Positions 37,779 through 51,442 of a stretch of 64,000 nucleotides of DNA are shown piece by piece. This DNA comes from Deltaproteobacteria bacterium (lineage in GTDB: Bacteria > Desulfobacterota > SM23-61). Numbering within the stretch: the first letter of the stretch is position 1; every line of letters starts with the position of its first letter. The position numbers and the translations under genes are program-made. Location of the stretch: positions 1 through 64,000 of the forward strand of contig VGSF01000004.1 in the NCBI GenBank assembly GCA_016875165.1, read 5' to 3'. The notes under the pieces are model-generated. The model was not told the DNA's origin, ran no database searches, and saw only the letters and a program-made list of their open reading frames with translations.

Positions 37779-38195
37779 TCATCCCTCTTCTTCCGATCTT
37801 GCAACCGCCCGTGCGAGGCTGGACGTGGCGACTCCAACGTGACGCGCGATCTCTGCCATAGATAATCCCAATTCATCCAGGCCGCGTTTCGCTATCGTTG
37901 CCCGAAGGGTACTTACCTTCCTCCGACAACCGCCCCCTTTGAGCTCCTTCGGGCTTATTCGTCCTTTCTGGCACTCTTCTTCGATAATCTTGGTTATGGT
38001 CTTGCCGGTCCGTCGAAGCTTTAACTGACATCTTGTTTTCTCCTCGGCTTCTTGGAGAATGGCGTTGACAAAATCGTCGCTTCCGAGGATGCGTTCGTCT
38101 GTTTCTTCTTTTTGGCCGTTTCTCCGGGCTGATAGGACTTGGGACCACCCACCCTTGCTTCTGATCAGCCCCCCTCCGGTGAATTCATCCGGCGA
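37779..38195 (-). pseudogene. REP-associated (RAYT/Y1-type) transposase, C-terminal remnant
   Basis: Minus-strand translation right after the carbamoyltransferase stop, without a start codon, gives GGLIRSKGGWSQVLSAR, then TDERILGSDDFVNAILQEAE, and ends with LGLSMAEIARHVGVATSSLA before a TGA at 37779-37781. These blocks match the C-terminal region of TnpA-REP proteins: the GGWS segment, the DERILG segment and a helix-turn-helix. The catalytic HUH/Tyr domain expected upstream is absent, cut off at the neighbouring gene. It is therefore a broken transposase. The relic is notable because REP-like palindromes abound here. Confidence 0.72.
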
Positions 38196-38198
38196 GCG

Positions 38199-39146
38199 TT
38201 AGTCAACTGGTACTCCGAGCACCAGGCATAGTAGACCCATGCGCAGGAATTGTCCGTATTTGATCTGGTCAAAGTACACCGCCCGGGGGTCCTGGTCCAC
38301 TTCCGGGGAAAGTTCATAGTCGCGGGGGAAAGGGTGCATGATGTAGGTATCCTTCTTTAAAACCTTCAGTATCTCCTGATTGATTCTGAAGATTTCCTTA
38401 GACCGGTCATAATCATCGATCTGATTCTTAAAACGATCTTTGGGGATCTGGGTGATGTAGAGAATATCCGCTTTCGAAACTATCTCCTTAAATTCTTCGG
38501 CATTGTCCAGGGATTCGCTGTAGGGGATTCTGTTTTCGGCCAGATATTCTTTCATGTCATCCTGAATCTTCAGGACCCGCGGGGAGGCAAAATAGATTTT
38601 AATGCCCGAGTATTTCGCCAGGAAATAGGCCAGGGAGCGAATAGTGCGGCTGTTCATCAAATCGCCGATAAAGGCGATGGAGACGCCGTCAATCCCCCCC
38701 TTCAGCTTTTCAATACAGTAAAGATCTATTAAGGCCTGGGTTGGATGCTGGGCCGGCCCATCCCCGCCGTTGATGATGGGAACGAGAGAAATTTCGGCAG
38801 CCCGTTTGGCTGAACCGCTCCGGTAATGGCGCAGGACAATCACGTCAACGAGGGAGCCCACTACCCGCACTGTATCTTCAAAGTTACCCCCGGCAAGTTC
38901 GGAAGAGAAAGTTTCCGGGAAGTCAATATGGGTTACCTCCCCTCCCAGGCGCTTCATGGCGCTGTCAAAGGAAAGATTCGTGCGCATGGATTTTACGTAA
39001 AAAAGATTGCCTAAGATTTTCCCCCTCAGAAGGTCCAGAGGCAAATTTCGCTCTGTCCGTTCTTTTATGTGGTCGGCGGCGCCGAGGATCTCTTGCAGGG
39101 CTTTTTTGTTAAATTGCTGCGCTTCTATTATATGGCCATGCTTCAT
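38199..39146 (-). CDS. Aspartate/ornithine carbamoyltransferase-family protein, substrate uncertain
   Basis: A 315-residue ATCase-like protein. Carbamoyl-phosphate residues are conserved: SMRTNLSF (STRT loop, Thr replaced by Met), LRH, AQHPTQALIDLY and GDLMNSRTIRSLAYF. Residues that grip aspartate in E. coli PyrB are not: the TRVQ segment (Arg229, Gln231) reads TQIPKDR, and the 80s-loop Lys83-Lys84 reads LA in SSELAGGNFEDT. It directly follows carbamate kinase in a ureide-type operon, without pyrI or other pyrimidine genes. I infer a carbamoyltransferase for another acceptor, or a catabolic phosphorolytic enzyme. A diverged PyrB is the alternative. Confidence 0.7.
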   Translation of the reverse strand: MKHGHIIEAQQFNKKALQEILGAADHIKERTERNLPLDLLRGKILGNLFYVKSMRTNLSFDSAMKRLGGEVTHIDFPETFSSELAGGNFEDTVRVVGSLVDVIVLRHYRSGSAKRAAEISLVPIINGGDGPAQHPTQALIDLYCIEKLKGGIDGVSIAFIGDLMNSRTIRSLAYFLAKYSGIKIYFASPRVLKIQDDMKEYLAENRIPYSESLDNAEEFKEIVSKADILYITQIPKDRFKNQIDDYDRSKEIFRINQEILKVLKKDTYIMHPFPRDYELSPEVDQDPRAVYFDQIKYGQFLRMGLLCLVLGVPVD

Positions 39147-39158
39147 GGTTTACTCCCT

Positions 39159-40118
39159 TCAGGGGACGATATGGGTTCCCTCTTGATTTTGCAATGCCAA
39201 CCAGGCACGGTCCAGGGAAGTAATAATTGCTTCCTCGCCCCCATATTCGATAAAGCGGATGCAGGCCAAAACCTTGGGAGCCATGGAGCCGGCCAGGAAT
39301 TGTCCTTCCTGAAGATATTTTTTAGCCTGTCTTATGTCCAGGCGCTCTACCTCTCGCTCTTCCGGGGTGCCGAATCCGAGTTTTACCCTGGGCACATCAG
39401 TGAGGATCACGAAGAAGTCCGCAGCCACGGCCTCAGCCAACTTTTCCCCGGCCAAATCCTTGTCGATTACCCCTTCGATCCCTTCAAACTCCCCCCGCTC
39501 ATTCAGGACTACCGGAACGCCGCCTCCTCCGGCTGCAATGGCGATCATTCCGGCATCGACGACCTTCTTCAAAGCACTCACTTCTAAAATCCGGATCGGG
39601 TCAGGCGAAGGGACGACACGGCGGAAAGGCGTTTCCCCGCCGGGCAAGACCTGCTTGATTTTATAGCCCCTTTCAGATTCAAGTTTCTCTTTGGTCCTGC
39701 GGTCATAAAAGGGACCCACCGGTTTGCCGGGATGCGCAAAGGCCGGGTCTTTCCGATCTACCAGCACCTGCGTAATCATGGTCACCACGTTAAAATTCAG
39801 ATTAAGGGATTTGAGTTCATTCATAAGAGCTTGCTGCAACACATATCCTAATTGCCCCTGGGTCATGGCATTGCAGATGTCCATGGGTTGGGGCGGAAGC
39901 TGAGAAGCCGCGGCCTCTTGCTGCACCAGAAGGTTTCCTACCTGGGGGCCGTTCCCATGGGTGATAACCACTTCAAATCCCCTTTTGATGAATTCCAAAA
40001 TGTGCAGGGAGGCGGCCTGAATGCTGGTCCGCTGCTCTTCGTAGGTCCCCTTTTGGCGCGGAAGCTTGATGGCGTTGCCCCCCAAGGCGATCACAATTCT
40101 CTTACGATCTCTTTTCAT
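39159..40118 (-). CDS. arcC: Carbamate kinase
   Basis: A 319-residue amino-acid kinase that transfers phosphate from carbamoyl phosphate to ADP, giving ATP, ammonia and CO2. Family blocks: RIVIALGGNAIKLP near the start, VITHGNGPQVGNLLVQQEAA near 50, AAGGGGVPVV near 205, and DKDLAGEKLAEAVAADFFVILTDV near 225. A GTG four codons upstream (40130) is in frame. It ends 12 bp before the carbamoyltransferase gene. In this cluster it would conserve the energy of carbamoyl phosphate made by the AllFGH-like proteins. Confidence 0.94.
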   Translation of the reverse strand: MKRDRKRIVIALGGNAIKLPRQKGTYEEQRTSIQAASLHILEFIKRGFEVVITHGNGPQVGNLLVQQEAAASQLPPQPMDICNAMTQGQLGYVLQQALMNELKSLNLNFNVVTMITQVLVDRKDPAFAHPGKPVGPFYDRRTKEKLESERGYKIKQVLPGGETPFRRVVPSPDPIRILEVSALKKVVDAGMIAIAAGGGGVPVVLNERGEFEGIEGVIDKDLAGEKLAEAVAADFFVILTDVPRVKLGFGTPEEREVERLDIRQAKKYLQEGQFLAGSMAPKVLACIRFIEYGGEEAIITSLDRAWLALQNQEGTHIVP

Positions 40119-40156
40119 GTTTTCTCTCACCGAGGCCCTCTACCACATCACTGATT

Positions 40157-40430: not shown

Positions 40431-40604
40431 TTACAACAGTTTATCGAGAAGGTCAATCATCTCCAGATCACCGCCTGCTGGGGGGACCCAATTTACCTGA
40501 ACAACTTCCACTCCTTGAATTTGCAGGCTTTCGGCAAAATCCTGCACTCCGATATTGACGGCCTTCGGGCCGTTTTGCAGGAGCTCATTTAATTTATTGG
40601 ACAT
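40431..40604 (-). CDS. Small FdrA-associated protein (57 aa)
   Basis: An ORF below usual size cut-offs. It starts ATG 40604 behind an excellent AAGGAGGATACTG site, overlaps the fdrA end by 11 bp, and ends TAA at 40431. The protein begins MSNKLNELLQNGPKAVNIGV and has VEVVQVNWVPPAGGD followed by LEMIDLLDKLL. The VNIG and V-W-x-PPAGGD blocks recall short proteins I associate with fdrA operons. No function is established. Coupled translation with fdrA suggests a subunit or accessory of the oxamate carbamoyltransferase-like complex. Confidence 0.75.
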   Translation of the reverse strand: MSNKLNELLQNGPKAVNIGVQDFAESLQIQGVEVVQVNWVPPAGGDLEMIDLLDKLL

Positions 40605-42159
40605 CAGTATCCTCCTTAAGACGGGCTACCATAAGCGCGCAGAATTGAGCCGCTTGGGAACTGCTGAGAAAAACGGCTACCCCTTCGTCCTCGAGGCGGG
40701 CGACCTGTTGCCGCAGGCCCTGGGGATCTTCGTCCGTTCCGCATACCGAAGCAACCACGGAGAGATACCCTCCTAGTTTTTTAGCCTCGCGCTTGGCCTC
40801 GGCGATTGCCGGAGCAAGTTCGCCCGCGGGGTCGGGGGAAGAATTAAAGCCCAGGATAAAATCTAAGAGGATAGTGGCCACTTGCGGATCCTGCGCCTCA
40901 GCGATGAGACGTTCCCGGCGCAGGCGGGAATCCATCATCGGGTGGGGCCGTCCAGCCGTGAATTCATCTGCGCCCATATCCACCAGAGTGTGTTCTTTAC
41001 TCCTTAGCGGATCAGGCAATTTGGAATTTCCTTCTATGGGGGCATTGGAGTATGCGGCTAACCCTGCTTCCTTAAGGACTTGCTGGGCCTGATAGCAAAA
41101 AGTGCCGCCGGCAAAAATTCCGCGGATGTATTGTTGGTCGGGATTCATGCCGGTTCGTTCTTTTAAGATGAGCGCCTGGAACCGGGAGCTGTTGGCGCTG
41201 AATGAGGACTTTAGGTTGCCGGTAACGGCTTGAACGGCCAGGGCCGCAGCTTCGTCCAGAGTGCGGGCAATTTGATAGCGGATATTGGCATGGGCAAGTT
41301 CTTTTTTCAATCCCAGAAAACAAACGACCACTGGCTTTGGGCATTTAAGGATTCTCGGAACGAGGTTGGCCAGAGCCATCGGGCCCGGCGGTTTGGATAT
41401 AATGGCGATGGCTTTTGTCGGCAAGTCAGCATCGAGAGCATCGAGGGCTGACAGCATGGAAATGCCCCCCAGGGCATCCGCAAGATCCCGGCTGCCGGTT
41501 CCGATAGCATGGGATATGCCTGAACCAGCCCGGTGCACAAGCGTGGTGAATTCCTGGATTCCAGTGCCGGAAGCGCCGATGACCCCGATAGGTCCTCGCC
41601 TAACGACATTGGCAAAGCCGACGCCCACCCCGCCGATAATGGCCGTGCCGCAATCGGGCCCCATGACGATGAGGCCGCGCTTACGGGCATATTCTTTGAG
41701 GGAGCGTTCGCTCTCTACCGGGACATTGTCGCTGAAGAGGAATACGTTTAAACCGCGTTCCAGAGCTTTCTCCGCTTCGCGGGCCGCATACGCCCCGGGT
41801 ACGGATATCACCGCCAGATTGGAAAGGGGCTGGCGGGCCAGAGCTTCGTCAAGGTTACGGATGGCTGATGCCGTTCCACCGCCTGCCTCGGCGTGCAGCC
41901 ACTGGTTAATATTTTCCAGAACGGCGGATAAATTCTGCTGACGGTCTGCCTTAACCGCCAGGATCAGATCGCTGGGCGTGGCCGCTGCAATCTCGGCGCT
42001 CGTAAAGCCGACTTCGGCAAGCACCCCCTTGTTTTTCTCCGTGCCCATGAAAAGCACGGCCTGCAGGATGCCCTTTTGCTCCGAGATGCGCTTGGCCACC
42101 CGCATCAAAAAAACAGAATCGTGGTATTCGTTTTTACGGAGGACATAACCCGTTATCAT
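40594..42159 (-). CDS. fdrA: FdrA/AllF-family oxamate carbamoyltransferase component
   Basis: A 521-residue protein of the succinyl-CoA synthetase-alpha-like FdrA family. A CoA-binding-like segment (VIGASGTGIQEFTTLVHRAG near 198) and GPDCGTAIIGGVGVGFANVV near 172 are seen. FdrA (AllF), YlbE (AllG) and YlbF (AllH) have been reported as the E. coli oxamate carbamoyltransferase, which forms carbamoyl phosphate plus oxamate from oxalurate in allantoin breakdown. All three homologues and carbamate kinase are present here. Confidence 0.88.
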   Translation of the reverse strand: MITGYVLRKNEYHDSVFLMRVAKRISEQKGILQAVLFMGTEKNKGVLAEVGFTSAEIAAATPSDLILAVKADRQQNLSAVLENINQWLHAEAGGGTASAIRNLDEALARQPLSNLAVISVPGAYAAREAEKALERGLNVFLFSDNVPVESERSLKEYARKRGLIVMGPDCGTAIIGGVGVGFANVVRRGPIGVIGASGTGIQEFTTLVHRAGSGISHAIGTGSRDLADALGGISMLSALDALDADLPTKAIAIISKPPGPMALANLVPRILKCPKPVVVCFLGLKKELAHANIRYQIARTLDEAAALAVQAVTGNLKSSFSANSSRFQALILKERTGMNPDQQYIRGIFAGGTFCYQAQQVLKEAGLAAYSNAPIEGNSKLPDPLRSKEHTLVDMGADEFTAGRPHPMMDSRLRRERLIAEAQDPQVATILLDFILGFNSSPDPAGELAPAIAEAKREAKKLGGYLSVVASVCGTDEDPQGLRQQVARLEDEGVAVFLSSSQAAQFCALMVARLKEDTDVQ

Positions 42160-42242: not shown

Positions 42243-43499
42243 TTAGGACCGTCCCAATCCATATTTTCGCCCAAAAGCGGTCAGGGCCTTTTTAAAGCAC
42301 TCCATGGGAGCGCGGACGAGTCCGGCGCCGATAATAGAGTAACCAGGATTCCGGTGGGCGATGGCCGTATCGATGATGGGAACGATGCCTGTCTGGACCA
42401 CTTTGCGGATGTCGATACCTACCGGAGCGCCCTGAAATCCCATTATAGGCATGCGGTAATTCGGACTGGCGGTCACGGTGATCTGCCGCATATCTTTACT
42501 GTAGACCATGGCTTCCTCCGGCGTTCCCCCTACCAGGGCGAGGATTCCGGTTGCCCCAGCCAGAACGAACCCGCCCCAGCCGACGGTCTCAGTGATGGCC
42601 GAATCTCCTATATCCGCACCTGCGTCCTCCCCGCCATAACCGGGGAAATAAAGCCCATTAACCCTGGGCGCAGGAGCAGTGAACCACTCTTCCCCAAGGC
42701 CGCTGACCCTGATGCCAAACTCGGTGCCGTTGCGGGCCATGGCCACGACAACCGTGCTGTACTCGATGCCGGCCGCCGGGTCAGCCGAAGCCTTGCCGGC
42801 GGCCATGGCCAGGGCCAGAAAAATCAGTTCATGGTTGGTGATGTATTTAAGCGTGCCTATGAGGTTATCTTTGGCGACGCCGGCCTCAATCATCGGGCAG
42901 GCCATGGCATTGGCGAAAAGGCTGGAGGCGGCGACCGGGCGGTTGTGCAGTTCATCGCCCATCTGCAGAGCTTTGGCAATGATGGGCTTCAAGCTGAGGC
43001 CTCCCATCTGGAGAAGGCCTTTTCTGAGCGCTGGCGCCCAAACATCCCGCCATTGGCGCAAGCCTTGCAAAGCTCCGTCACTATAGTCGCCAAACTGCTG
43101 GCGCCCTTCCACCTGGCGGCAAAAGGCGCGATTGCCAAAGGTTTTGTTCTCCACGACCCAAACCGGCATGGAAGCGGAGATGGTCCCGGCCATGGGACCG
43201 ACAGCCTGGTGAGGATGATTGGGTTCAAACCGGATCGCTCCGCTCTCTAAAAGCTTACCGGCCTCATCAACACTTCCGGCCCAGCCTTCAAAAATGGCCG
43301 CACCCATCATGGCGCCCCGCTGCGCTCCGCACATACGTTGCCAATCAACTGGCGGGCCGGAATGTAAAAGCATTCGGTCTGTAAGGCCCGGGATGACTTG
43401 TCCCGCAGGGGCGATGTCAATCAACACGGGATCTGCGGCATTTATGCGCTTTACCGCTTCCGCATTGGCCGCTTCAATCTTCTGTTTGATATCATCCAT
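42243..43499 (-). CDS. DUF1116 (YlbE/AllG) protein
   Basis: A 418-residue DUF1116 protein. N-terminal KIEAANAEAVKRINAADPVLIDIAPAG is typical, as are GPPVDWQRMCGAQRGA near 48 and NPGYSIIGAGLVRAPMECF near the end. It is an essential partner of FdrA in oxamate carbamoyltransferase. Several glycine-rich, highly conserved loops suggest a catalytic role, but no cofactor motif is evident. Upstream of it on the operon strand, a 567-bp gap holds three repeat elements, so it may be separately transcribed from the AllH-like gene. Confidence 0.85.
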   Translation of the reverse strand: MDDIKQKIEAANAEAVKRINAADPVLIDIAPAGQVIPGLTDRMLLHSGPPVDWQRMCGAQRGAMMGAAIFEGWAGSVDEAGKLLESGAIRFEPNHPHQAVGPMAGTISASMPVWVVENKTFGNRAFCRQVEGRQQFGDYSDGALQGLRQWRDVWAPALRKGLLQMGGLSLKPIIAKALQMGDELHNRPVAASSLFANAMACPMIEAGVAKDNLIGTLKYITNHELIFLALAMAAGKASADPAAGIEYSTVVVAMARNGTEFGIRVSGLGEEWFTAPAPRVNGLYFPGYGGEDAGADIGDSAITETVGWGGFVLAGATGILALVGGTPEEAMVYSKDMRQITVTASPNYRMPIMGFQGAPVGIDIRKVVQTGIVPIIDTAIAHRNPGYSIIGAGLVRAPMECFKKALTAFGRKYGLGRS

Positions 43500-44066: not shown

Positions 44067-45053
44067 TTAATTTAATTTTCCATCAACGGAGAGCATCCCG
44101 GTTAGCGCCCCGGCCAGCATATACCAGCCAGTCGTATGCCCAACCCTTAACAAACGATTGATGCCGGCCATAACCTGTCCAGGATCTTCGCCTTTCAATA
44201 GCATCATTACCAGGTCATGCAGCGGCTCAGGGCCTTGACCTTTGGCCAGATCGCCGAGGATGGCATGGCTTATGGGATGGGTGCGAGTCCGCGCCCAGTC
44301 GATAAGGTCGAAAATGGGCTGCTGCTCCCAACGGAATTCTTCGGGGTATGCTTTGTTAAGCCAGTGAGCAGTAAAGAGCAAACCTCCCAGAAAATCATCC
44401 CCGAAAGGGGTCAGGCCCGGGCCCAGTCCAACCAGTTCCCGGCCCCTCGTCCCGACCTGGGCCAGGCCCTCGCTTAGCCAAAGTCTTACTAGGTCAAGAA
44501 TCGGAGAGAGGATCTGGTTCGACCATGACCCTGGTGGGAAAGGCGCTAAATCCCGGCCGTTTACTATCGAGGAAATCATCGGGATTATTCGGCCAGACCC
44601 ATCATCGCTGATAGCTGCGGAGATGTCCTCCAGCAACTGCCTGGCCAAATCATGCATCTTGGGGAGCGGCCTTGTCTTTGCCGGTCGGAGTTGGTCCGGC
44701 TTCCATTCCGCTGCCTGGCTCAGATCAACGGCAAGGTCTCTCCCAATTCGTAAGGATCTCCCTTCCACGAAAAAATTCTGGCCAAGGCAAAGGGAGCGCG
44801 GCAGGAAGGAGATCAGGATGCCGCGCCTATGCAGCGGCGCCCCTTCTCGAACTAACCACAGTATCTCTCCATCTCTTCCGGATAAGTAGGCAACATCGGA
44901 GAGAGCTGCCAACACTTGGCCAGAGAACCCTGGCGTAACCAGCAGGCTTTTGGCTTTTGCGCCGACGCATATTGCCTGCCAGGTAAAAAGGTCAGACTTA
45001 TCCCGCCGGTTGAAGATTTCCTCAGGGCGACCTGTTTTACTTGGGCTGACCAA
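44067..45053 (-). CDS. DUF2877 (YlbF/AllH) protein
   Basis: A 328-residue DUF2877 protein, third component of the FdrA/YlbE/YlbF system. The conserved GLGPGLTPFGDDFLGGLLFTAHW (about 217-239) is the family hallmark, and RTRTHPISHAILGDLAKGQ follows near 254. The GTG start at 45053 overlaps the upstream BMP gene by 17 bp; a later start would lose conserved sequence only if beyond residue 30, so the N-terminus is uncertain. Overlap with the importer gene ties the enzyme to the transporter. Confidence 0.85.
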   Translation of the reverse strand: MVSPSKTGRPEEIFNRRDKSDLFTWQAICVGAKAKSLLVTPGFSGQVLAALSDVAYLSGRDGEILWLVREGAPLHRRGILISFLPRSLCLGQNFFVEGRSLRIGRDLAVDLSQAAEWKPDQLRPAKTRPLPKMHDLARQLLEDISAAISDDGSGRIIPMISSIVNGRDLAPFPPGSWSNQILSPILDLVRLWLSEGLAQVGTRGRELVGLGPGLTPFGDDFLGGLLFTAHWLNKAYPEEFRWEQQPIFDLIDWARTRTHPISHAILGDLAKGQGPEPLHDLVMMLLKGEDPGQVMAGINRLLRVGHTTGWYMLAGALTGMLSVDGKLN

Positions 45054-46137
45054 TCACGCCCTCAACCAGCCAATCCATTCTCCCTATGTTTGTAAGCGGC
45101 CAGAATTCGCCGGCTTTCACCCGATCAGCGCCTTTATTGTCTTTGATCGGGCCCTGGAAGGTGTTTTTCTTGGCGGCAATAAATTCCTGCTTGGTTTCAT
45201 TTACTAATTTGATGGCATCCGCCGGGACAGCAGGGCCAAATGGGGCTATCGTCAGATAGTCGCTGGCTAGATTTCCCAAGAGGGCCTCGCTCTTCCAGGT
45301 GCCGTCCATGACCTGCCTGGCAAAACGGGTGTAGAGTTCACCCCAGGTAAAGGCGATGCCGCTGACCCAGCCTTTTGGGGCAAATTTCTGCACGCCCAGG
45401 TAATGGTAGCCAACAGAGTAAACGCCGCGCTTTTCCGCAGCCTGCACCACTGTAATGGGGGAATCCACGATTACCCCCATGACGTCTACGCCCTGATCCA
45501 GGAGGGCATTGGCAGCGGTGGCCTCCTTGGGGGCGTCGAGGAAGGTTCCCATGAAAACCACTCTCGTTTCCATTTGGGGGTTTACAGAACGGGCGCCGAG
45601 ATGAAAGGCATTAATGTTGGCTAAGAAAAAGCTTATGGGAAGGGCGACCACATAACCGGCCTTGTTTGTTTTTGTCGTTTTACCTGCGGCAATGCCCATC
45701 AGATAGAAGGCATCCGGCGTGCTGGCCCAGTAGGTGCCCAGGTTTGGCGCAAGTTTGTATCCGCCGGGATGGACAAATTTGACATCCGGGTATTTTTTGG
45801 CCACTCTTAAGGCTGGGTCAAGGTAGCCGAAACTCGCGGGAATGATAAGTTTGGCTCCCTGCCTGATCATGTTCTCCATGACCCTTTCGGCGTCAGCCCC
45901 CTCCGGGACATTCTCGACCTGGATCACCTCAATGTTCGGCAGGTTCTTTTTCATGAGGTGCACGCCTTCAGAATGGGCCTGATTATAACCGGCATCGGTG
46001 ATGGACCCAATATGAATGATGCCCACCTTCAGTTTCATCTGGGCCATAGCTTCCGGTAACCCCAAGGACAGGATCAGAGCGAGGCCGGCCACAACAGAAA
46101 GGACCTTAAACATCGCTTTCGAAATTTTCTTATTCAT
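45037..46137 (-). CDS. BMP-family periplasmic substrate-binding protein
   Basis: A 366-residue ABC solute-binding protein of the basic membrane protein (PnrA/Med) family, which typically binds purine nucleosides or related heterocycles. The N-terminus is a signal peptide (about 1-33, ending PEAMA), with no lipobox Cys, so it is a soluble periplasmic form. Family motifs: GIIHIGSITDAGYNQAHSEG near 39, and VMGVIVDSPITVVQAAEKRG near 210. ATG 46137 lies behind GGAGGAGATGAA. The following AllH-like gene overlaps it. Confidence 0.9.
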   Translation of the reverse strand: MNKKISKAMFKVLSVVAGLALILSLGLPEAMAQMKLKVGIIHIGSITDAGYNQAHSEGVHLMKKNLPNIEVIQVENVPEGADAERVMENMIRQGAKLIIPASFGYLDPALRVAKKYPDVKFVHPGGYKLAPNLGTYWASTPDAFYLMGIAAGKTTKTNKAGYVVALPISFFLANINAFHLGARSVNPQMETRVVFMGTFLDAPKEATAANALLDQGVDVMGVIVDSPITVVQAAEKRGVYSVGYHYLGVQKFAPKGWVSGIAFTWGELYTRFARQVMDGTWKSEALLGNLASDYLTIAPFGPAVPADAIKLVNETKQEFIAAKKNTFQGPIKDNKGADRVKAGEFWPLTNIGRMDWLVEGVIGQPK

Positions 46138-46575: not shown

Positions 46576-47493
46576 CTATTCCGTTCCTTGAAAGACCCGC
46601 CCTAAACTGCCCGGGGCAGCCTGCCGGCGAGTGCCGCCCCAGATGGCCAGGACTGCCAGGCTCAAAACGTAAGGAAGCATGTCCAGCAAAAAGGACGAGA
46701 CCGGCACTCCCCGGGCTTGCATCTGTAGCTGCAGGGAAATTGCCCCGCCAAAGAGCAGGGCTCCGGCGATCGCCCGCAGGGGGTGCCATTTGGAAAAGAT
46801 AACCAGGGCAACCGCTATGAAGCCTCGTCCGGCCGTCATCCATTCCGCCCAGGTCTTGGCCACGGCGAGGGAAAGATGGGCCCCGGCGATACCCCCCAAA
46901 ATCCCGGCGATGAATAGGGCCTGATATTGCAGCCTGTGGGGATTCTTACCCGCAGCAAAGGCCGCTGTAGGGTTTTCCCCTACGGCCCTCAGGCTTAACC
47001 CCCAGCGGGTTCTGAAGAGAAACCACCATACAAGAACCGCAATCGGGATTACCAGGTACACAAGTATATCGTAATTGAAAAAGGCCCGGCCAATGAAGGG
47101 AATAGTGGAAAGAAAAGGGATCTGGATCTCGTTGAGTCCCTGAATCCGGCTGCCGATGTAGGAGGCGCCTATGAGAGCGCTGAGGCCCACGCCGCAGAAC
47201 ATTAGCGCCAGTCCGCTGGCCAATTGATTGGCCCGGCGGGTGATCACCAGGAACCCAAATACCATATTGAAGAGACCCCCGGCCAGCGCTCCAGCCAAAA
47301 TACCCAGGACAGGATTGCCCGTCTGGACCGTCGTCGTAAAACCCACCACCGCCCCCATGAGCATAACACCTTCCAAACCAAGGTTGACGATGCCGACCCG
47401 TTCCCCTACAGCCTCAGCAAGGGTAGCATAAAGCAAAGGCGCGCCGGAATGAATCGCTCCGGACAGGATACTTATTAAAAATGATCCGATCAT
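46576..47493 (-). CDS. ABC transporter permease (BMP/nucleoside type), second subunit
   Basis: A 305-residue BPD_transp_2 permease (YufQ/NupC-like) with about nine helices. Seen are GVMLMGAVVGFTTTV near 41 and the conserved RTRWGLSLRAVGENPTAAFAAG near 166-187, the cytoplasmic coupling loop. It overlaps the upstream permease by 4 bp. With its partner it forms the channel of the importer. Confidence 0.9.
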   Translation of the reverse strand: MIGSFLISILSGAIHSGAPLLYATLAEAVGERVGIVNLGLEGVMLMGAVVGFTTTVQTGNPVLGILAGALAGGLFNMVFGFLVITRRANQLASGLALMFCGVGLSALIGASYIGSRIQGLNEIQIPFLSTIPFIGRAFFNYDILVYLVIPIAVLVWWFLFRTRWGLSLRAVGENPTAAFAAGKNPHRLQYQALFIAGILGGIAGAHLSLAVAKTWAEWMTAGRGFIAVALVIFSKWHPLRAIAGALLFGGAISLQLQMQARGVPVSSFLLDMLPYVLSLAVLAIWGGTRRQAAPGSLGRVFQGTE

Positions 47494-48548
47494 TTTCCCC
47501 CCACTTTACCGGCACGCCGGGCAAGCACGACAAATAATACCAGAGCCATAAGGATGTGCACCGCCGCGCCTGGAATCCTGTGGGTCATCTGGAGAATATC
47601 CCCGCCGGCCGTAATTACGGAAATCAGGAAGGCCGCAGCCACGATACCCAGCGGGTTGCCCATGGCCATCCAGCTAATCAAGAACCCGGTGTATCCCAGG
47701 CCCGGAGAGAGGCTCGGGCGGAGCTGCCCATGAATCGCCGAGACTTCGCCCATACCGGCCAGCCCGGCCATTCCGCCGCCGATAAACATAAGGAGGATGA
47801 TATAACGGTAGGTGGATATCCCATTGCGGCGCGCCGCTTCCTGATTGATGCCGATAGCGCGCATTTCCAAACCCCAGCGTGTCCGGGACAGAACGAAATG
47901 GAACAGGATGAGGCCGACAATTGCCAGGACGGCCCCCAGGTGGACCCGCGACCCGAAAAAAGAAGGCAGGATGGCTGCATCCGGAAAAGGTATGCTTTGC
48001 GGATAATTGGCGCTTTCCGGGTCTTTCCAGGGGCCGAAGACGAAGAAGTTTACCAGCAGGATGGCCACATAGTTCATAAGCAGGGTGGAAATTGTTTCAC
48101 TGGCCCAGCCTTTGGCCCGCAGGAACCCTGAGATTGAGGCCCATAGCCCGCCGCCGAGAAACCCCAGGATGGAAATCCAGGGCAAAAATAGCCATGCGGG
48201 CAGGTTGCTGAAATTGATGGCTCCCCAGGTGGCGAATAATGCTCCAATGAAGAGCTGACCTTCCCCGCCCACGTTGATCAGCCAGATTCTGGATGGTATA
48301 GCCACGGCCAGAGCGGTTAGGGCGAGCGGAATCATTTTTACCAGCACTTCCGAGAACCCGTAGGAGCTGCCGAGCGTGGCCGAGAAAATATCCACATAAG
48401 CCCGGATGGGGTTTTTCCCAAACACCAGCAAAACCACAGCAAAGACTAAAAGGGCTATCCCGAAGAGTCCGCTGAAGCGAATAACGCTGGCCACCCTTTT
48501 ATTCCGAAAAAGGTCAATTCCGGCAGTGACTTTATCCACTCCGCCCAT
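47490..48548 (-). CDS. ABC transporter permease (BMP/nucleoside type), first subunit
   Basis: A 352-residue BPD_transp_2 permease (YufP-like), about ten helices. The coupling loop is RTRWGLEMRAIGINQEAARRNG near 222-243, and WLINVGGEGQLFIGALFATW near 88-107 is the conserved membrane region. The start lies 17 bp inside the end of the ATPase gene, so the operon is translationally linked. The heterodimeric permease plus double ATPase is standard for this importer class. Confidence 0.9.
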   Translation of the reverse strand: MGGVDKVTAGIDLFRNKRVASVIRFSGLFGIALLVFAVVLLVFGKNPIRAYVDIFSATLGSSYGFSEVLVKMIPLALTALAVAIPSRIWLINVGGEGQLFIGALFATWGAINFSNLPAWLFLPWISILGFLGGGLWASISGFLRAKGWASETISTLLMNYVAILLVNFFVFGPWKDPESANYPQSIPFPDAAILPSFFGSRVHLGAVLAIVGLILFHFVLSRTRWGLEMRAIGINQEAARRNGISTYRYIILLMFIGGGMAGLAGMGEVSAIHGQLRPSLSPGLGYTGFLISWMAMGNPLGIVAAAFLISVITAGGDILQMTHRIPGAAVHILMALVLFVVLARRAGKVGGK

Positions 48549-50073
48549 ATTCTCCTTTCGACCCGGTCATCAGGTAGCCCACATCTTTCATGCTGATGTC
48601 CTTTGGGGTGCTCGTAGCCACAATCCTCCCGCGGAACATGACTACCAGGCGATCACTTAAAGCAAACAGTTCACCCAGGTCTTCCGAAATCAGGAGGATG
48701 CCTGCTCCTGAGTCCCGGGAGGCCACGAGCACCTTCCGTGCGGCAACTGCGCTTTGTACATCGAGGCCTCGGGTAGGGTAAAAAGCAATGATCAATTTGG
48801 GGTTGTGAGCCATCTCCCGGGCCAGGATCATTCGCTGGATATTTCCGCCGGAGAGGATTCCCAGAGGAACATAAAACGGTGGAATATTGAACCCCAAACG
48901 TTTAAGGGAAGCCTGCAGGTCGGAACGAACGGCTTCCCAGTCCATGGACAAGCCCCTTTGCCGGGAGTACATGTGTGTATTGGCCATGGCCATATTTTCC
49001 TGCACGCTCAGCCAGGGGAAAGCGGCCATGCTAAGCGGGTCTTCAGGAATGAAGGCCACTCCTCTGCCGCGGACCCGGGCAACTGACCAGTGGGTTGCAT
49101 CCTGTCCCCCCAGGTTTTTAGCTCCCCCGGAACATTTCTCGATCCCCAGGACGACATCGCCGAGCTCCTTCTGGCCGTTGCCCGAAACCCCGGCGACCCC
49201 GACAATTTCACCAGGCTTAATTGTCAGATTTATATCCTTAAGACCCCAACCAGTTCCTTCAGGCTGGGTACTGACCATTTTCAATTCGAGGAAGGGATTT
49301 CGCCCTTCTAACGGCGTTTCGCTCCGCTTTCGGGAAAACTCATCGATCGTTTTGCCGAACATCAGGGAAATAAGCGCGCTTTCCGTCGCTTCGGAGCCTG
49401 GGAGGGTGCCGGCGACTTTACCGCGGCGCATTACGGTAATGCGGTCTGCGCAGACCAGGACCTCTTTCAGCTTGTGGGTAATAAAGGCCACGGCGTATCC
49501 ATCCCGGCGCAGGTTGGTGAACACCTGGAATAATCCTTCCACTTCGTGGGGCGCGAGGCTCCTCGTCGGCTCATCGAGAATCAGAATCTTAGCGTCTGCC
49601 AGGAGCAATTTCAGCACCTCCACTTTCTGGCGTTCCCCGACAGAGAGTCGCCAGACCAGGGCCTTAGGATTCACCTGAAGACCGTAGCGCTCTGAAATTT
49701 CCTCGATGCGGTTGACTATGGAAGCATTATCCAGGATAAAGGGCAAGTTGGGCAAAAAGAGGGCGATATTCTCGGCCACTGTCAGGGCCGGAATCAGAAT
49801 GAAGTCCTGAAAAACCATGCCGATACGGTATCCTCGAGCATCGTGGGGCGAGCGAATTTGCACCGGCTTACCGCTCAGCAGAATTTCCCCCGAGTCCGCC
49901 CGGTAAAAACCGTACAAAATCTTCATCAGCGTACTTTTCCCGGCTCCGTTCTCCCCCAAAAGGGCATGGACTTCGCCGCTGAAAATATCAAGATCAACGT
50001 GATCATTGGCCAAAACGGCCGGGAATGCCTTGGTAATACCACGCAAGGAAAGAAGAGGGGATGAGCTCATCAT
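48532..50073 (-). CDS. ABC transporter ATP-binding protein (tandem NBD)
   Basis: A 513-residue protein with two nucleotide-binding domains. NBD1: Walker A GENGAGKSTLM near 38, signature LSVGERQKVEV near 145, Walker B ILILDEPT near 164. NBD2 is degenerate at Walker A (GVSGNGQKELG near 296) but keeps the signature LSGGNIQRMILARE near 405, with IIAFYPTRGLDV. That asymmetry is normal for sugar/nucleoside importers (RbsA/YufO type). It heads the operon. A 98-bp sequence duplicated upstream of panB lies just before its start. Confidence 0.92.
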   Translation of the reverse strand: MMSSSPLLSLRGITKAFPAVLANDHVDLDIFSGEVHALLGENGAGKSTLMKILYGFYRADSGEILLSGKPVQIRSPHDARGYRIGMVFQDFILIPALTVAENIALFLPNLPFILDNASIVNRIEEISERYGLQVNPKALVWRLSVGERQKVEVLKLLLADAKILILDEPTRSLAPHEVEGLFQVFTNLRRDGYAVAFITHKLKEVLVCADRITVMRRGKVAGTLPGSEATESALISLMFGKTIDEFSRKRSETPLEGRNPFLELKMVSTQPEGTGWGLKDINLTIKPGEIVGVAGVSGNGQKELGDVVLGIEKCSGGAKNLGGQDATHWSVARVRGRGVAFIPEDPLSMAAFPWLSVQENMAMANTHMYSRQRGLSMDWEAVRSDLQASLKRLGFNIPPFYVPLGILSGGNIQRMILAREMAHNPKLIIAFYPTRGLDVQSAVAARKVLVASRDSGAGILLISEDLGELFALSDRLVVMFRGRIVATSTPKDISMKDVGYLMTGSKGEYGRSG

Positions 50074-50189: not shown

Positions 50190-50265
<76 letters not shown>

Positions 50266-50557
50266 TTTTAAAGATAATCTTTCTCCGATTAAAAAGATAT
50301 AATTATAATGCCTTCGTCTATGTTGTCAAGTATTTTTTTCTTTAGGTTGAAATTCCGCCATAAGGGCGACAGGAGGGATGAGGGGAGGGGGTTTTAAAAG
50401 TTTTGAAAAACAGCGGCGTGCTTCTTATGGAAAAAGGAATACCCGTTCGTTTTTCTCAGGGGATTTGAAGGAGAAGAGGGGGCAAGAGTCGGGTCTCTTG
50501 CGAATTGAAGAAAAAGTTATCCCTTTAGCTTTTGGGAGACAAAAGCTGCCTGTTGGT

Positions 50558-51442
50558 TTATTCGATCTCCCTCCGGAACCGTTTAATCTTAAGCCGATAG
50601 AGCTCCTTGGGAGTCATATCCATCAGATAAAACAGTTCTTCTACGTCGACGATCCCATAGATGCCCTCATAGTAAACGATCATTTTATGGATGCTCTGGC
50701 CCATCTGCTTTCCTCTTAAGCGGCGAATCCCCAGATGGGCCAAACGCTGGCCTCGCTGGCTCTTATAAGCGTTGACTAAGCTATAAATGATCAGGGTTAG
50801 AATCGCATGCGCCCGGACGGCCGAGCCCGTCTTCTGGGGATACTTCAATAAATGATAACCCTGCTTGAGCTCCCGGAAACCCTGATTTTCAATCTCGGAG
50901 CGCAAATCGTACTGCTCCAACACCCTCAAGGGCCGAGAGACCGAAAGGCTGGTCAAAAAAATCTTCTCCTCCCCAACCTCATACTCCCTCTCCTTCCAAC
51001 GTACCACCATGATCCCATTGATCGGATTCGCCCTAAAATCCTTCCGGCCTCTTTTCCTCTTATGCTCCTCCTCTCCAAATTGATCATAAGATAAAAGCCC
51101 CCGCACCCCCAAAACCTTGACCTCTTTCGTCTCCTCCCAAAAGACCCTTTCCCCATCGGCCTTCTCCGACCGAAACCCCCGAAGGTCCTGGCTGACATCC
51201 ATATTGGTCCGGGCCGGGATGACAAAATGGATCTTCATCTTCTTCCATAACCACCAAAGCAAAACCCCATCGATGAACCCCCGATCCACCAATAAAACCC
51301 TCACCGCCCCGCCCGTCCGCTCCTGCGCCTCCCGCACCAACCTCTTCGTAAAGCGCTTCTCATGCTCATTAATTTTCACCATCCGCGCCGCCGCCACCAG
51401 CTTGTGCCTCGCCTCCTGAGACATTGACGCTCTTTGTCGCAC
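50558..51442 (-). pseudogene. IS4-type DDE transposase, N-terminally truncated
   Basis: A 294-residue open frame with the DDE transposase middle and end: RVLLVDRGFIDGVLLWWL near 47-64 (second Asp) and YDLRSEIENQGFRELKQGYH near 190-209 (Glu). The N-terminal helix-turn-helix and first catalytic Asp expected of an IS4-family enzyme are missing, and the frame ends abruptly against an oppositely oriented integrase fragment. No clear terminal inverted repeats were found. It is probably inactive. Confidence 0.7.

Follow-up and report, generated by a model that had tools for sequence, protein, structure and literature searches.

A carbamoyltransferase encoded next to carbamate kinase apparently lacks the residues that hold the aspartate side chain

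Aspartate carbamoyltransferases (ATCases) anchor the beta-carboxylate of aspartate through the motif RxQxER (PMC4581275). Barba et al. (2013) described pseudo-ATCases, which are annotated as ATCases but have lost R-x-Q and occur alongside a true PyrB encoded elsewhere, and which fall into groups defined by the motifs AIA with HPLA, GX[SC] with H[ST]LP, and VXP with HSLP (PMC4016543). The ureidoglycine carbamoyltransferase (UGTCase) Rxyl_2847 is an ATCase-like protein encoded beside carbamate kinase, for which both arsenolysis and phosphorolysis of allantoate have been shown (PMC4016543). A set of transporter, AllFGH and kinase genes is also known from nitrifier genomes (PMC12625717).

We compared these systems with a carbamoyltransferase gene (hereafter TCase) in the window, that is, the whole 64,000-nucleotide stretch of DNA analyzed. 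The gene is the last of a minus-strand row that runs from an ABC transporter ATPase through permeases, a BMP-type protein, AllH, AllG and AllF to carbamate kinase (Table 1). It encodes 315 amino acids from an ATG start with an AGGGAG ribosome-binding site and, as the first-pass annotation had stated, lies directly behind carbamate kinase, with 12 bp separating it from the kinase stop codon. For the kinase, the ORF caller placed the start at 40130, although the Met codon at 40118 is likely, while the open frame of the BMP/PnrA-like gene extends to 46458, with the likely start at 46137 inferred from the signal-peptide-like MNKKISKAMFK. Since AllF, AllG, AllH and carbamate kinase genes occur together in the window, the row can be called an oxamate transcarbamylase operon.

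Table 1. Genes of the minus-strand row ending with the TCase gene, and the evidence for each assignment
Feature	Position	Strand	Evidence
TCase, ATCase fold, Q-x-P replacing the aspartate motif R-x-Q	38199..39146	minus	ORF, alignment, model
Carbamate kinase (ArcC/AllK type)	39159..40118	minus	TIGR00746 379.8 bits, cut-off 358
AllF (FdrA), oxamate transcarbamylase subunit	40594..42159	minus	NF004760 469.8 bits, cut-off 433
AllG (YlbE), oxamate transcarbamylase subunit	42243..43499	minus	PF06545, E 3.9e-74
AllH (YlbF), oxamate transcarbamylase subunit	44067..45053	minus	PF11392, E 7.5e-18
BMP/PnrA-like substrate-binding protein	45037..46137	minus	PF02608, E 4.1e-42
ABC permease, BMP-type importer	46576..47493	minus	NF047928-like, below cut-off
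ABC permease, BMP-type importer	47490..48548	minus	NF047929-like, below cut-off
ABC transporter ATPase, first gene of the operon	48532..50073	minus	NF047930-like, below cut-off

Alignment to E. coli PyrB, whose numbering is used throughout and whose sequence was confirmed against PDB 1q95, showed that the carbamoyl-phosphate residues S52, R54, T55, R105, H134 and Q137 are kept in the TCase; S80 is present and position 53 is Met instead of T53. On the acceptor side, R167, P268, R269 and E272 are kept, whereas K83, K84, R229, Q231 and L267 are replaced by L, A, Q, P and F, respectively. The protein accordingly reads Q229 I230 P231 (within QIPKDR) and HPFPR with E272, and the RxQxER motif is absent. 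This residue mapping upholds the intact carbamoyl-phosphate site of the first-pass annotation as well as the changes it listed at Arg229/Gln231 (TRVQ to TQIP) and Lys83/Lys84 (to Leu and Ala), all of which are correct. Judged from its sequence, the TCase is without the residues that hold the aspartate side chain. It nevertheless scores 267.7 bits against the TIGR00670 (PyrB) profile, above the curated cut-off of 236.95, so TIGR00670 calls it an aspartate carbamoyltransferase at equivalog level and genomes that carry it are misannotated; a genome without a real pyrB would appear complete if it carried this gene. Against TIGR00658 (ornithine carbamoyltransferase, OTCase) it reached 134.7 bits (cut-off 280.85), with the DxxxSMG and HCLP motifs absent, and against TIGR03316 (YgeW type) 27.2 bits (cut-off 500).

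How unusual these substitutions are was apparent from a collection of carbamoyltransferases drawn from relatives of the window, a pattern-limited scan of 84,980 species genomes, and Actinomycetota. R229 and Q231 are kept together in 105 of the 128 non-redundant ATCase-class proteins, every one of which (105/105) also has K84, and the exceptions belong to a small number of clades, so the residue loss in the TCase is not a chance effect. QIP is found in the window, in loci L057, L058, L059 and L060 and in the remnant L038, and the partial L147 has QLS. Throughout this clade R229 and Q231 are lost, the carbamoyl-phosphate residues are intact and R167 is kept; position 84 is A, V, S or V in the four closest members and Lys in the two most basal ones, L060 and L147.

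The first-pass annotation had also proposed overlaying a predicted structure on PyrB. An AlphaFold2 model of the TCase built from a 35-sequence alignment (mean pLDDT 92.5, pTM 0.91) matched Arabidopsis ATCase with bound PALA (6ypo) over its full length at Z 41.5 and 44% identity, and the E. coli ATCase R105A mutant at Z 41.0 with an rmsd of 1.5 over 304 residues. Since the sequence alignment through the 240s motif is gap-free and the model matches PALA-bound ATCases along its entire length, no other Arg or Lys is expected to replace R229 or Q231. By analogy with its family, the TCase is probably trimeric.

Whether the TCase is simply the PyrB of its genome depends on what else its relatives encode. 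In the MAG that contains the window, ArgF was the only other carbamoyltransferase found, with no second PyrB. PyrB of the congeners G001-G003 lies in a conserved block, lepB-pyrR-pyrB-pyrC-...-greA-NtrC-type regulator. This block was not recovered from the window's MAG except for repeats and paralogous regulator segments, and no dihydroorotase (DHOase) there reached its family cut-off. Because the whole block is missing, an assembly or binning gap is the simplest reason for the missing PyrB. The search for a separate pyrB that the first-pass annotation had suggested was productive in the relatives: G395 (L057) and G396 (L058), which carry the same operon, have three carbamoyltransferases each, namely ArgF, a canonical PyrB with R229, Q231, K84 and HPGP, and the QIP enzyme. 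The presence of a normal PyrB beside it in the two closest same-operon relatives indicates that the QIP enzyme is an extra one.

We asked whether an amidohydrolase gene on contig C161 of the window's genome (G000; L143:4139-6714) could be a pyrC lying next to a contig break, and rejected this because the gene resembles allantoinase/ErtD and has an AllC/ErtE-like hydrolase gene as its partner. The pair possibly serves ergothioneine- or allantoin-derived hydantoins.

The Q-x-P/S proteins formed one small clade of six loci in each of two trees (97 and 69 rows), with SH-aLRT values of 98 and 99. It falls within ATC II (ATC I/II names are applied by analogy with PMC4016543), close to Arabidopsis ATCase and to R-x-Q enzymes from other bacteria, while PyrB of the host genomes and their congeners belongs to the other branch, ATC I. 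Clustering within true PyrB by a protein that is the only ATCase of its genome, which the first-pass annotation would have taken as evidence against its reading, was therefore not what we found: although the clade lies inside ATC II, it is separate from its hosts' own PyrB, and PyrB coexists with the TCase in the closest relatives. The clade is under strong purifying selection, with a dN/dS of 0.08 for the TCase against L057 and L058; for L059, synonymous sites were saturated.

The kinase-TCase pair recurs outside the oxamate context. Carbamate kinase adjoins the TCase in 4/4 complete loci outside the window, and the pair sits in three operon types, only one of which contains AllFGH. The first type, ABC-AllH-AllG-AllF-kinase-TCase, is that of the window, L057 and L058. 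In L059 the pair lies among genes for a GABA-aminotransferase-like protein, an OTCase and an arginine deiminase/DDAH-like hydrolase, with a TRAP transporter and a 2,4-diaminopentanoate dehydrogenase-like gene further on, and in L060 (G005) it follows an OTCase, a D-hydantoinase-like protein and an R-x-Q ATCase. TCase and kinase diverge in step over the three contexts, with identities to the window's proteins of 87/85, 80/82, 74/69 and 54/57 percent (TCase/kinase). AllG, which is rare in the phylum sample (5/395 genomes), is absent from the genomes of L059 and L060, and G236 has ABC-AllHGF genes without an adjacent kinase-TCase pair. These distributions indicate that the pair can be separated, as a unit, from the oxamate genes, and we rejected the view that the TCase is an obligate component of the oxamate pathway. 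The first-pass annotation's "oxamate-type operon" thus holds for the window but describes only one of the three contexts of the pair.

Two other genomes contain only pieces of the operon. G002 (L038) has disjoint AllF, kinase and TCase fragments, with internal deletions that fuse a kinase piece to a TCase piece, and G006 (L017) has a 300-bp TCase remnant; both look degenerate, although this may be a MAG artefact. Clusters with an OTCase, a D-hydantoinase-like protein and an R-x-Q ATCase were also seen in L036 and L037 (G014, G051), L148 (G143) and L035/L060 (G005), with carbamate kinase too where the stretch covers it and, in G051, xanthine-dehydrogenase-type subunits. The cluster ATCase and OTCase are the only ones found in G014 and G051, so one set of enzymes may serve both biosynthesis and catabolism there.

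The TCase resembles UGTCase and the pseudo-ATCases in being annotated as an ATCase, in its S-x-RT/HPTQ site, in the loss of R-x-Q and, in its relatives, in coexisting with a true PyrB. A carbamate kinase neighbor is shared with pseudo-ATCase subgroup 1; however, when compared by published motifs alone, the TCase has QIP and HPFP where subgroup 1 and UGTCase have AIA/AIS/SIA and HPLA, and its operon has no allantoinase gene, the allantoinase/ErtD-like gene being on another contig. QIP/HPFP likewise differs from the GX[SC] and H[ST]LP of subgroup 2, and only P231 is in common with subgroup 3 (VXP and HSLP). Subgroup-2-like GCS/HTLP sequences recovered in Actinomycetota (L201, L203-L206) differ from the window clade and were not joined to it in the tree, although the AU test did not reject a joint clade (p 0.251). 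The AU p value was 0.063 for the window clade constrained to join the PVT group alone and 0.049 for it constrained to join the GCS and PVT groups together, leaving a common origin of all three unsupported. By its motifs, QxP with HP(F/L)P lies outside the three published groups and appears to be a fourth pseudo-ATCase motif group, one tied to carbamate kinase.

With the ATC II ATCases (E. coli PyrB and Arabidopsis ATCase), the TCase shares the whole fold, the carbamoyl-phosphate site, R167 and HPxPR, but it differs in R229>Q, Q231>P and K84>A, is not encoded with pyrC or pyrI, and in relatives is extra to PyrB. The window operon resembles the AllFGH-AllK system and the nitrifier bmpA-nupABC-allFGHK loci, as excerpted from PMC11326118 and PMC12625717, in its transporter, AllF/G/H and kinase genes, whereas those excerpts name no additional gene of the ATCase fold for the allFGHK loci. 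AllFGH shows no sequence relationship to the transcarbamylase family. YgeW of the reductive urate pathway, which carries out phosphorolytic cleavage of an alpha-ureido group beside the carbamate kinase YqeA (PMC12507026), is comparable to the TCase in this respect but belongs to the knotted, AOTCase-like branch.

The first-pass annotation had proposed that the enzyme uses another acceptor or runs in the catabolic direction. An acceptor other than aspartate is well supported by the aligned residues, those for the beta-carboxylate being gone clade-wide while relatives have a separate PyrB; the catabolic direction is plausible given the fixed kinase partner and an operon that also encodes a transporter and oxamate transcarbamylase. 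We lean slightly toward the TCase phosphorolyzing a non-aspartate alpha-ureido acid and passing carbamoyl phosphate to the kinase for ATP formation, where we infer the direction, the ATP gain and the substrate class. The carbamoyl-phosphate half-site would work as in ATCase, and the acceptor pocket would no longer recognize the aspartate beta-carboxylate. Since the TCase keeps R167, the residue by which ATCase positions the alpha-carboxylate, its partner would most likely be an alpha-ureido acid whose side chain is neutral or small; our leading guess, a tentative one, would be a purine-derived ureido acid such as allantoate. Most likely, ureido acid and Pi would yield carbamoyl phosphate together with the acid or amine left after decarbamoylation; the neighboring kinase would convert carbamoyl phosphate and ADP to ATP, CO2 and NH3. 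The window would then encode two steps that yield carbamoyl phosphate, one by oxamate transcarbamylase AllFGH and the other by the TCase.

Phosphorolysis with ATP formation is suggested by the fixed kinase neighbor and the transporter, with UGTCase Rxyl_2847 and YgeW as precedents. Several observations count against it. The four closest members lack K84, a loss that should be harmful in a true ATCase; the oxamate, arginine-like and hydantoin/pyrimidine-like contexts point to no single substrate; and G236 has the ABC-AllHGF genes without the adjacent pair. Moreover, each operon already has another carbamoyl-phosphate-making enzyme, so the role of the TCase may not be catalytic supply. More doubtfully, the acceptor could be one never described, with kinase and TCase forming a portable two-gene ATP-yielding module placed on varied carbamoyl-phosphate pathways (oxamate, arginine-like and hydantoin-like) in anaerobic Desulfobacterota-type bacteria.

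It is unlikely, we think, that the TCase is specifically a convergent or divergent UGTCase (allantoate + Pi to ureidoglycine + carbamoyl phosphate). This would be a specific case of the phosphorolytic reading in which, together with AllFGH and the kinase, the route from allantoin to oxamate would yield two carbamoyl phosphates. AllFGH performs the last step of anaerobic allantoin use, and the known UGTCase is ATCase-like and beside carbamate kinase, but the TCase motif is unlike that of subgroup 1 (AIA/HPLA), and the sibling loci L059 and L060 lie in genomes without AllG and in contexts that do not point to allantoate. A neutral Gln at position 229 would fit a side group of amide- or ureido-like character. 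The C161 amidohydrolase next to an allantoate-amidohydrolase-like gene offers a possible allantoinase in the same genome, yet it matches best with ErtD (hydantoin-5-propionate), the scores listed for it fall short of the curated cut-offs, and its AllC-like partner would already cleave allantoate.

The main mechanistic rival, to which we also assign a low probability, holds that the TCase is a non- or weakly catalytic partner of the kinase that holds, hands over or senses labile carbamoyl phosphate made by AllFGH or by the OTCase/ATCase of the same operon. The kinase is constant while the carbamoyl-phosphate source varies by context, the carbamoyl-phosphate site is kept while K84 is lost in the crown group, and the remnants in G002 and G006 suggest that the TCase is dispensable. 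However, acceptor-side R167, P268, R269 and E272 remain conserved, strong purifying selection extends across the whole protein, and other transcarbamoylases without K84 are active (Table 1 of PMC4581275). It is quite improbable that the TCase instead runs forward, carbamoylating a non-aspartate amine or amino acid with the operon's carbamoyl phosphate: carbamoylation is thermodynamically favored, but the gene shares its operon with carbamate kinase, an importer and oxamate transcarbamylase, and no biosynthetic gene is found in the operon. We rejected as the main reading, and consider very unlikely, a biosynthetic ATCase with a rewired aspartate site, since despite the TIGR00670 score (267.7 against 237), the nesting in ATC II and the lack of another ATCase in the window's MAG, canonical PyrB coexists with the TCase in G395 and G396, the congeners' pyrR-pyrB-pyrC block and a DHOase at family cut-off are missing from that MAG, and the TCase lacks the aspartate motif shared by all known ATCases.

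If the phosphorolytic, catabolic reading is true, it would provide another substrate for the few transcarbamoylases known in substrate-level phosphorylation, and an ATCase pocket would have been repurposed through very few residue changes.

Other ATCase-like proteins with altered acceptor residues were also encountered. A group without R229/Q231 in Actinomycetota (L191-L199) has P at 229, HSLP and Tyr at 84 and fits none of the published pseudo-ATCase groups in the alignment; in at least six genomes it lies beside an OTCase-like gene that has the motif SSW. A single relative in Ignavibacteria (L061:9995-10918) reads R229-I-D231 with Gln at 84 and is encoded behind OTCase and carbamate kinase genes and before a class-III aminotransferase gene; from its sequence, it possibly represents another acceptor change.

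A tRNA-Phe gene (50190-50265, minus), the only hit of an RNA-family search of the operon, immediately precedes the operon, and a perfect TTGACA-16-TATAAT promoter upstream (50302-50329, minus) is probably that of the tRNA. A DDE transposase gene lies upstream of the operon (50558-51442, minus), and directly behind the TCase (about 37800-38180, minus) is an apparent C-terminal transposase remnant that by eye resembles the protein of L059:14188-15048. Given the transposase upstream and the transposase-like remnant behind the TCase, the operon may have moved horizontally.
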